Assembly (NCBI GenBank): GCA_026989455.1
Contig: JALSJH010000074.1
Span: 1 to 51,932 of the forward strand
Reading direction: 5' to 3'
Source: Chromatiales bacterium
GTDB taxonomy: Bacteria > Pseudomonadota > Gammaproteobacteria > RBG-16-57-12
DNA: 51,932 nucleotides
Below the pieces are notes generated by a model. That model saw only the letters and a program-made list of their open reading frames with translations. It did no database searches and was not told the origin of the DNA. Every line of letters begins with the position of its first letter. The stretch's first letter is position 1. This document shows positions 5,293 to 40,714 of the stretch, piece after piece. A program made the position numbers and the translations under genes.

Positions 5293-5328
5293 TTTATTTT
5301 ATACCAGACCGCAGGGCGGTTGTTTGAG

Positions 5329-5379
5329 GAAGCTCTGATCAAGTCATGAATGTTTTATGCTGGCTTAATCAGAGACTCC
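5329..5379 (+). mobile_element. Palindromic mobile element, copy 1 (51-bp internal-deletion form)
   Basis: It begins with GAAGCTCTGATCAAGTCATG and ends with CTTAATCAGAGACTCC, the two ends of the 157-bp element, joined at a CT shared by both sides. The middle 106 bp are missing. It is flanked by perfect 5-bp direct repeats TTGAG at 5324-5328 and 5380-5384. It sits 36 bp upstream of the Sel1 gene start. A second weak match to an element end (GAAGAGTCTGATG) begins at 5384. Confidence 0.85.
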
Positions 5380-14387: not shown

Positions 14388-14417
14388 CTCCATTTAAATG
14401 ACACGTGTTTAATTGAG

Positions 14418-14574
14418 GAAGCTCCGATCAAGTCATGAATATTTTATACTGGCTTAAATCGCCCTCATTTATCCCGAAAATTACACCCATAGAGCGACTA
14501 TTACTGCGCATTTCGGAACAAATGAGAACAATTTCCTCTCAGCTTAAATTCATTCAGACTTAATCAGAGACTCC
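14418..14574 (+). mobile_element. Palindromic mobile element, copy 2 (157 bp)
   Basis: A full-length copy from GAAGCTCCGATCAAGTCATG to CTTAATCAGAGACTCC, with perfect 5-bp direct repeats TTGAG at 14413-14417 and 14575-14579. The two halves are imperfect reverse complements meeting near 14493. It encodes no protein. It ends 12 bp before the purC ATG, and the right-hand TTGAG forms part of the purC ribosome-binding site. Confidence 0.9.
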
Positions 14575-14586
14575 TTGAGGAACACC

Positions 14587-15318
14587 ATGCAAAAAACCAC
14601 CGAACTCTACGCCGGAAAAGCCAAGTCAGTTTACAATACTGATCACCCAGACTACCTGATTATGTCGTTCCGCAACGATACGTCGGCCTTTGATGGCGAA
14701 AAAATTGAGCAGCTTGAACGAAAAGGTGAAGTTAACAATAAATTTAACCACTTTATTATGCAGAAGCTTGAAGCCGCAGGAATTCCGACACAAGTGGAGT
14801 CTCTGCTTTCAGATACCGAATCGGTGGTGAAGCGTTTAGAGATGATCCCGGTTGAGTGCGTAGTGCGTAATATTTCAGCGGGTAGTCTCTGTCGCCGCCT
14901 GGGTGTGGAAGAGGGGCTGGATTTGCAACCACCTACCTTCGAGCTATTTCTTAAAAACGATGCGTTACACGACCCTATGTTGAACGAGTCACTTGCGATA
15001 ACGTTTGGCTGGGCAACGCAACCACAGCTAACAAAAATGAGAGAGCTGACCCTCACGGTAAACAAGGTGTTGAGCCAGCTTTTTGATGACGCGGGTATGT
15101 TGCTGGTGGATTACAAGCTGGAGTTTGGTCTGTTTAAAGGGGAAATCATGCTGGGGGACGAGTTCTCCCCTGATGGTTGTCGTTTGTGGGACAAAGAGAG
15201 CCGCGAAAAGCTGGACAAAGATCGCTTTCGCCAAGGCTTAGGCGGCGTTGTTGAAGCCTACCTCGATGTTGCCAGCCGCCTAGGTATTGATATGGGGCCG
15301 GTTGAGCGCTCAAGCTGA
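14587..15318 (+). CDS. purC: Phosphoribosylaminoimidazole-succinocarboxamide synthase PurC
   Basis: 243 residues from the ATG at 14587. The Shine-Dalgarno sequence TTGAGGAA lies 6 bp upstream and is partly made of the duplicated target site of the mobile element. PurC joins CAIR and aspartate using ATP in purine synthesis. Family motifs are all present: [53 protein letters not shown] and [12 protein letters not shown]. The 157-bp element separates the gene from any native promoter, so transcription must start within the element or come through it. It converges on the HDOD gene. Confidence 0.97.
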
Positions 15319-32848: not shown

Positions 32849-32883
32849 TATGTGTCGTGACTCGAGGGTGGGTGCTACTCAGG

Positions 32884-33040
32884 GAAGCTCTGATCAAGTT
32901 ATGAATGTTTTATGCTGGCTGAAATTGCCCTCATTTATCCCGAAAATTGCACCAATAGAACAACTATTACTGCGCATTTCGGAACAAATGAGAGCGATTT
33001 CCTCTCAGCCTAAATTCATCCAGACTTAATCAGAGATTCC
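32884..33040 (+). mobile_element. Palindromic mobile element, copy 3 (157 bp)
   Basis: Full-length copy from GAAGCTCTGATCAAGTTATG to CTTAATCAGAGATTCC, flanked by TCAGG at 32879-32883 and 33041-33045. By eye it differs from copy 4 at about five positions. The arms meet at AATAG (32954-32958) / CTATT (32964-32968) with a 5-nt centre. It lies in the mrcA/pilM divergent region, 35 bp from the mrcA start and 163 bp from pilM. Confidence 0.92.
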
Positions 33041-34279
<1,239 letters not shown>

Positions 34280-40456: not shown

Positions 40457-40500
40457 GTGTGATTGCTGTTTTTTATTCTGTGCAGCTCAGTATAAAGCAC

Positions 40501-40521
40501 TCATAACTTGATCAGAGTCTC
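40501..40521 (-). repeat. Terminal fragment of the palindromic element beside copy 4
   Basis: TCATAACTTGATCAGAG matches the reverse complement of the first bases of copy 3 exactly, and the fragment ends in TCTC directly before the CTTAA target repeat of copy 4. It looks like the remnant of an older copy into whose edge copy 4 inserted. Confidence 0.65.
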
Positions 40522-40526
40522 CTTAA

Positions 40527-40683
40527 GGAATCTCTGATTAAGTCTGGATGAATTTAGGCTGAGAGGAAATTGCTCTCATTTGTTCTGAAATGCGCAGTAA
40601 TAGTTGTTCTATTGGTGCAATTTTCGGGATAAATGAGGGCGATTTCAGCCAGCATAAAATATTCATGACTTGATCAGAGCTTC
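40527..40683 (-). mobile_element. Palindromic mobile element, copy 4 (157 bp, inverted)
   Basis: A full-length copy in the opposite orientation, from GGAATCTCTGATTAAG to TGACTTGATCAGAGCTTC, flanked by CTTAA at 40522-40526 and 40684-40688. It ends 31 bp before the WGR gene start and lies 70 bp after aroB. It is nearly identical to copy 3 (about five differences by eye), so transposition may be recent. Confidence 0.92.
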
Positions 40684-40714
40684 CTTAATGACTCCTACTT
40701 AATGGCGTAATGTT

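Follow-up and report, generated by a model that had tools for sequence, protein, structure and literature searches.

What kind of element is the long palindrome that occupies positions 32883 to 33040 of a 51,932-nt contig of a Chromatiales bacterium (JALSJH010000074.1, the whole of which is referred to here as the window), and what keeps its two arms complementary? Bacterial MITEs are usually regarded as decayed IS elements and are defined by their ends. In this paper we describe an IS5-type MITE with a strand-specific hairpin body that is conserved across a wide range of bacteria; it is this combination that is new, and for the hairpin we propose a role in the spread of the element itself. 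That the length hardly varies and the fold stays strand-specific in dozens of genera suggests that selection can act on a non-coding transposon as a folded strand of RNA or DNA. Since relatives have the same length and fold despite changed letters, it would be the folded single strand, most likely an RNA copy, that matters for spread. These results give an identity to a common repeat that places long hairpins in many intergenic regions and raise a testable question, namely whether a transposon's own hairpin RNA is needed for its movement. Any regulatory effect of the element on neighbouring genes would be conjecture.

Methods

The genome that contains the window is a fragmented MAG of 2.37 Mb in 116 contigs. 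Compensatory changes were scored in a structure-blind MAFFT alignment of 36 representatives, with base pairs called by RNAalifold. Because related sequences can exceed plain shuffles, a tree-aware test similar to R-scape was added, in which the substitutions of 120 sequences were placed anew on the tree at unchanged site rates. For the counts of G-U and A-C, pairs were defined without allowing G-U and single-side changes from Watson-Crick pairs were tallied. The full-length covariance model was built from 13 sequences and the core covariance model covers the central 69 nt; E-values are rough (short calibration), and most listed scores lie far from the threshold.

The element and its fold

Aligned end to end with its own reverse complement, the 158-nt element is an imperfect palindrome over its whole length, with a self-identity of 74% (Table 1). 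An earlier note on this DNA had read it as one full-length palindrome whose symmetry goes beyond terminal inverted repeats, and both points held in the alignment, the left arm being the reverse complement of the right arm throughout. The right boundary given there, 33040, was correct and the left one moves out by a single base, from 32884 to 32883. The arms do converge on AATAG-AACAA-CTATT, which lies at the apex, and the arm motif quoted is present with a spacer of three bases, not two, on both arms (CTCATTT-N3-CCGAAA). The 18-bp terminal inverted repeats are GGAAnCTCTGATnAAGTC. In the comparison with shuffled sequence that had been proposed as a check, the plus strand had a folding energy of -58.5 kcal/mol (z -8.2) and the minus strand one of -78.3 kcal/mol (z -11.9), and none of 200 shuffles folded as well in either case. 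The palindrome is real and far beyond chance. No promoters within the 158 nt were evident on inspection by eye.

The further suggestion that the element was made from two copies of one arm fared less well. Arm-specific features persist across genera, one end being GATCAAGTCATG and the other GATTAAGTCTGG, and the C-A mismatch that these ends form on the strand first read is a G-U pair on the opposite strand. As compensatory evolution alone can maintain arm complementarity, such an origin is not established.

Table 1. Coordinates in the window of the palindromic element, its parts and its further copies.
Feature	Position	Strand	Basis
Full-length element, 158 nt	32883..33040	- (better-folding strand, starts GGAATCTCTGATTAAGTCTGG)	sequence, alignment, folding
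Target-site duplication TCAG, left copy	32879..32882		sequence
Target-site duplication TCAG, right copy	33041..33044		sequence
Left terminal inverted repeat, 18 bp	32883..32900	+	end-pattern search
Right terminal inverted repeat, 18 bp	33023..33040	-	end-pattern search
Central core region	32928..32995	-	aligned with cores of other element types
Apical stem AATAG-loop-CTATT, most conserved part of the family	32954..32968		family alignments
Full-length copy, TTGA duplication, directly upstream of purC	14417..14574	-	sequence
Full-length copy, inverted orientation, TTAA duplication, between aroB and a damX-like gene	40527..40684	+	sequence
End fragment of another copy, adjoins the 40527 copy	40483..40522	-	sequence
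Internal-deletion derivative, 52 nt, both ends, exact TTGA duplication	5328..5379	-	sequence

Copies in the window and its genome

At least 59 distinct full-length copies are present in the window's genome, with a mean identity of 93.6% to their own consensus, and an exact 4-bp target duplication was found at 33 of these 59. Ends that match GGAANCTCTGATNAAGTC with at most 2 mismatches number 241 in the genome, against 1 for a reversed control pattern. The copies are intergenic (an overlap of more than 80 nt with a predicted ORF was seen for 0 of 59) and their orientation relative to flanking genes is unbiased, 16 pointing the same way and 20 the opposite way. About ten bases past the right-hand duplication of the copy upstream of purC comes the likely purC ATG (window 14413-14590), and the hairpin of this copy is probably in the purC leader.

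Tandem copies or fragments with one common 4-bp duplication were seen in the window at 40483-40688 and at G000:C62:11036-11357, G000:C38:7513-7836 and G000:C11:3039-3236, an arrangement that looks as if elements insert beside themselves or move as dimers. Coreless derivatives of 40-85 nt that have both ends occur at L155 (1392-1686) and also at L122, L136, L142, L144 and L156; the L155 stretch holds three of 41 nt close together, two of them with exact duplications.

Ends and target sites of the IS5 group

The element is short (158 nt), multicopy and without a transposase gene, and it has 18-bp terminal inverted repeats and 4-bp target duplications of the form YTNR. On sequence grounds it is thus a MITE, a non-autonomous transposon of the IS5 group, presumably moved in trans. 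Across 147 elements from many genera the target duplication is exact at 4 bp in 67 and at 5 bp in none, and its consensus is Y-T-A-R, with TTAA, CTAA, TTAG and CTAG dominating, as is the IS5-group type.

Matches to NF033581 (IS5-family transposase) adjoin the same ends in three genomes, G258, G350 and G001. G350 carries an element of 1037 bp in which the IS5 transposase is frameshifted, with ends of this kind and TTAA duplications; in G001, which is from the window's genus, GGAAGCCCTGATTAAGTC has beside it what remains of an NF033581 IS5 transposase, its C-terminal part. IS5-like transposase genes or remnants adjoin such ends in G258, G017 and G196, and there the end variants (TATTC, AAGTC, AATTC) of the IS and the MITEs of the same genome match. 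Searches of the window's own assembly, a fragmented MAG, with DDE_Tnp_1 and DUF772 found no IS5 transposase; the former returned one remnant, a 107-aa open frame not flanked by these ends, and the latter returned nothing. MAGs often lose multicopy IS.

Comparison of the 32883 and 40527 loci with MAG MC-02 (L036, about 77% nucleotide identity) gave no clean empty site. In MC-02 the orthologous mrcA-pilM spacer, at the counterpart of the 32883 site, contains a decayed relic (L036 9711-9868) with much of the right arm missing, and at the counterpart of the 40527 site there is a short end remnant. With a relic or remnant at both sites, MC-02 was rejected as an empty-site proof.

Distribution across bacteria

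An exact search for the end pattern gave matches in 26 of 369 gammaproteobacterial genomes, many of them paired 158-160 nt apart around bodies strongly unlike that of the window, and these divergent bodies adopt the same full-length hairpin. The full-length covariance model matched in 88 of the 369 genomes of the class, belonging to 68 of the 272 genera (about a quarter of those sampled), and in a phylum-wide sample the same model matched in one further family, placed in another class; these large scans scored few candidates per genome, so copy counts from them are lower bounds. In a set restricted to lengths of 150-165 nt, 140 of 147 elements are 158-161 nt long although their body sequence diverges, and the covariance-model matches of both scans are equally narrow. 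The endosymbiont of Escarpia spicata carries the element (L079 10596-10754). BLAST of plasmids with the window element and the elements of two relatives gave no matches, and Rfam gave none over the window element, in eight related loci or over the core in other elements. We found no description of the element in the open-licence papers searched, which does not prove that there is none; it is common across gammaproteobacteria and apparently undescribed.

At L163 (1501-1738) a predicted tRNA gene lies six bases from the end of an element. Two-ended elements of two further sizes, 109 and 151 nt, occur in other genera; their ends are similar and of IS5 type but their interiors differ (L169, L192, L186, L187, L179), and the 151-nt type resembles a string of small hairpins.

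A core in elements with unrelated ends

The core model matched more widely: of the 369 genomes 120 had matches, representing 91 of the 272 genera, or roughly a third of the sampled gammaproteobacterial genera, and a single genome (G213) had 137 matches. Core contexts were inspected in 18 genomes, mostly chosen for zero or few full-length matches, and in these, with boundaries taken from a simple inverted-repeat search, the elements are 157-305 nt long and usually have the core at about 42-46 nt from their left end (L403-L433, L434, L435). The terminal repeats of such elements differ (TGTCCTGTCC.., GGGAACACTGATTAGTG.., GCAAGCACCAGTAAATAC.., TACTCTTTCAAGG.., GGTCTGTTGACG..), and many have CTAG or TTAA duplications. 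Many elements of about 260 nt appear to consist of two inverted core-like hairpins closed by terminal repeats, and these have no strand preference (better strand in 11 of 17). The core of the window's lineage is simplified, being without the GGCG/CAACGC internal loop present in most others. One of the elements of about 260 nt is carried by plasmid pAcX50f of Azotobacter chroococcum and a similar one by a plasmid of Pseudomonas aeruginosa PA83; in BLAST of core-bearing composites against plasmids the matches, from Azotobacter and Pseudomonas, span 57-67 nt only.

The sharing of the core among elements with unrelated ends is a strong lead and not a finished classification. We consider it possible, though somewhat doubtful, that these elements form a mobile-element superfamily defined by RNA, in which a conserved hairpin core of internal loops and an apical stem is retained, many unrelated terminal repeats are combined with target sites of YTNR/CTAG type, ends are swapped between transposases and a common host factor recognises the RNA. 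At one locus (L407 1115-1230, 1385-1453 and 2850-2918) Rfam TwoAYGGAY (CL00106) matches fall near, not over, a core-bearing element, the match at 1385-1453 being just below the curated cut-off.

Selection on one folded strand

RNAalifold called 55 consensus pairs, 42 of which show compensatory double changes. Among the 36 representatives, 93.6% of cells are pairing, compared with 75.1% in shuffles and at most 47% with the partner slid, and 351 cells are changed on both sides, compared with 108 in shuffles. The tree-aware test left six significant covarying column pairs, all six in the hairpin and distributed from the terminal repeats to near the apex, and a smaller run of 35 sequences with low power gave three, again all in the hairpin. 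The covariation that the earlier note had set as a check is therefore present.

The two strands are not equal in this respect. Of 99 non-redundant family members, 97 fold better as the strand that starts GGAAnCTCTGATTAAGTCTGG, the mean advantage of that strand being 19.5 kcal/mol, and so do all 59 copies of the window's genome. On this strand changes from Watson-Crick to G-U outnumber those to A-C by 204 to 94, whereas the unpaired control gives 161 and 205 (Fisher p ~3e-10). The excess persists when the terminal repeats are left out (147:65), and each length lineage shows it separately (39:11 at <=158 nt and 112:52 at >=159 nt). A double-stranded palindrome, a cruciform or an arm duplication alone would be strand-neutral, so the asymmetry argues for a folded single strand, and it points to selection acting on that strand. 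The strand in question is probably RNA, and a folded DNA single strand may be the alternative. The single long hairpin first described is retained in this account, with the stronger structural constraint on the strand opposite to the one read.

Where selection acts, and rival explanations

Among the copies of the window's genome, destructive single-side stem changes make up 32 of 63 private variants and 6 of 52 shared variants (p 8e-6), in a comparison where recurrent transitions may inflate the shared class. The ratio of G-U to A-C among private stem variants is 17:14, and private variants are not depleted at paired positions (0.58 per site vs 0.35 at unpaired positions, n.s.). It appears that resident copies decay freely while the lineages that are still transposing keep the hairpin, which would place selection during spread. 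The contrast between shared and private variants, together with the unbiased gene orientation, speaks more for a function in the mobility of the element itself than for one at individual sites.

We therefore propose that an IS5-group transposase, supplied in trans, would recognise both 18-bp ends and insert the element at YTNR sites, creating the 4-bp duplication. The whole-body hairpin would matter as one folded strand, starting at the GATTAAGTCTGG end and most likely RNA, and selection would act on jumping lineages and not on each resident copy. The hairpin would then be a cis-acting requirement of the mobility cycle, for example in protecting, processing or presenting the element. We regard the explanation as a whole, an IS5-group MITE with a strand-specific hairpin that is selected in jumping lineages and serves mobility, as probable; that the hairpin is a cis-acting requirement we put forward tentatively, at slightly under an even chance. 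The lack of strand preference in the two-core relatives and the lack of IS5 transposases in the window's own assembly both count against the explanation. Since some of the coreless two-ended derivatives have exact duplications, the full hairpin may not be strictly needed for movement.

The hairpin could instead serve tolerance by the host, if read-through transcripts form the hairpin and RNase III then cuts it, or if it shields the message, so that insertions do little harm and broken copies are soon lost. Correia elements act in this way (PMC2649163), selection on a single strand is compatible with RNA, and the copies are intergenic, some in 5' regions such as that of purC. With unbiased orientation, however, read-through should select both strands and only one is G-U-biased, and damaged stems are frequent among the private variants of resident copies, with no depletion at paired sites; we think this reading unlikely. 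Replication template switching that copies arm onto arm would maintain complementarity neutrally, and indeed the arms are complementary in every lineage and hairpin-mediated deletion could yield the short derivatives of this genome. Arm copying, though, would produce Watson-Crick pairs on both strands alike, and it predicts neither the G-U excess on one strand nor the conserved arm-specific differences and nearly fixed length, so that this account is already disfavoured and seems to us very improbable.

Nearly as improbable is that the element is a recently amplified internal-deletion product, two fused IS ends whose similarity between genera reflects horizontal spread. The IS5-type ends, the duplications and the class-wide distribution would all fit, but the IS ends match the element over the outer 18-25 bp only, the core stays conserved where the ends are unrelated, and divergence with compensatory change speaks for long evolution of the body. 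Finally, a small peptide of about 42-47 residues might be encoded on the other strand: at least 40 open codons follow a conserved ATG in 87 of 132 members, and in the 159-nt clade variability is slightly higher at third positions (182 vs 149 and 145, p 0.07). Codon periodicity is absent in the window genome's own copies (43, 43, 49; p 0.77), however, the phase changes from the 158-nt lineage to the 159-160-nt one, and mid-frame stops occur in several lineages. With a frame that is not conserved, a longest frame of about 46 codons and no coding signal, peptide coding was rejected as the main explanation and is extremely improbable.

Comparison with known systems

Compared by description, the known element most like it in kind is MITEPsy1 of Pseudomonas syringae pv. 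phaseolicola, a 100-nt MITE with IS5-type 18-nt ends that start GGAA and contain TCTGA..AAG, a 4-nt duplication (CTAG or YTAA) and observed movement (PMC3189936). IS5-type ends and a 4-nt duplication are common to both; MITEPsy1 differs in its length and in its ends (GGAAGGTCTGAAAAAGCC), and no conserved hairpin body or RNA-level selection has been described for it.

The earlier note had likened the element to Correia repeats, and the likeness extends to working principle only. Correia repeat enclosed elements, or NEMIS, of Neisseria are mobile, commonly 153-157 bp and present in many copies, with an RNA hairpin and RNase III (PMC2649163), and in working principle they are the closest to our element, with a similar size. 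They have a TA target, where a 4-bp YTNR duplication is found here, and different ends, an IHF site, promoters and a stem formed from inverted repeats around a core, whereas in our element the stem extends from end to end and has a strand bias.

QMITE1 and QMITE2 of Coxiella burnetii occur in tens of copies, fold as palindromes and give rise to sRNAs from some copies; duplications are 2-3 nt for QMITE1, reported without orthologues in other genomes, and 7-11 nt for QMITE2 (PMC5896051). They are likewise gammaproteobacterial palindromic MITEs and differ from the element in duplication length and sequence. REPs are 20-40 bp (PMC3733652) and are tied to REP-associated tyrosine transposases (PMC2817692). 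The present element, at 158 nt with IS5-type ends and 4-bp duplications, is not a palindrome of 20-40 nt without IS-type ends of the REP/REPIN kind. REPs and REPINs are high-copy intergenic palindromes, some of them inverted pairs, and some of the composite relatives found here likewise hold two inverted cores.
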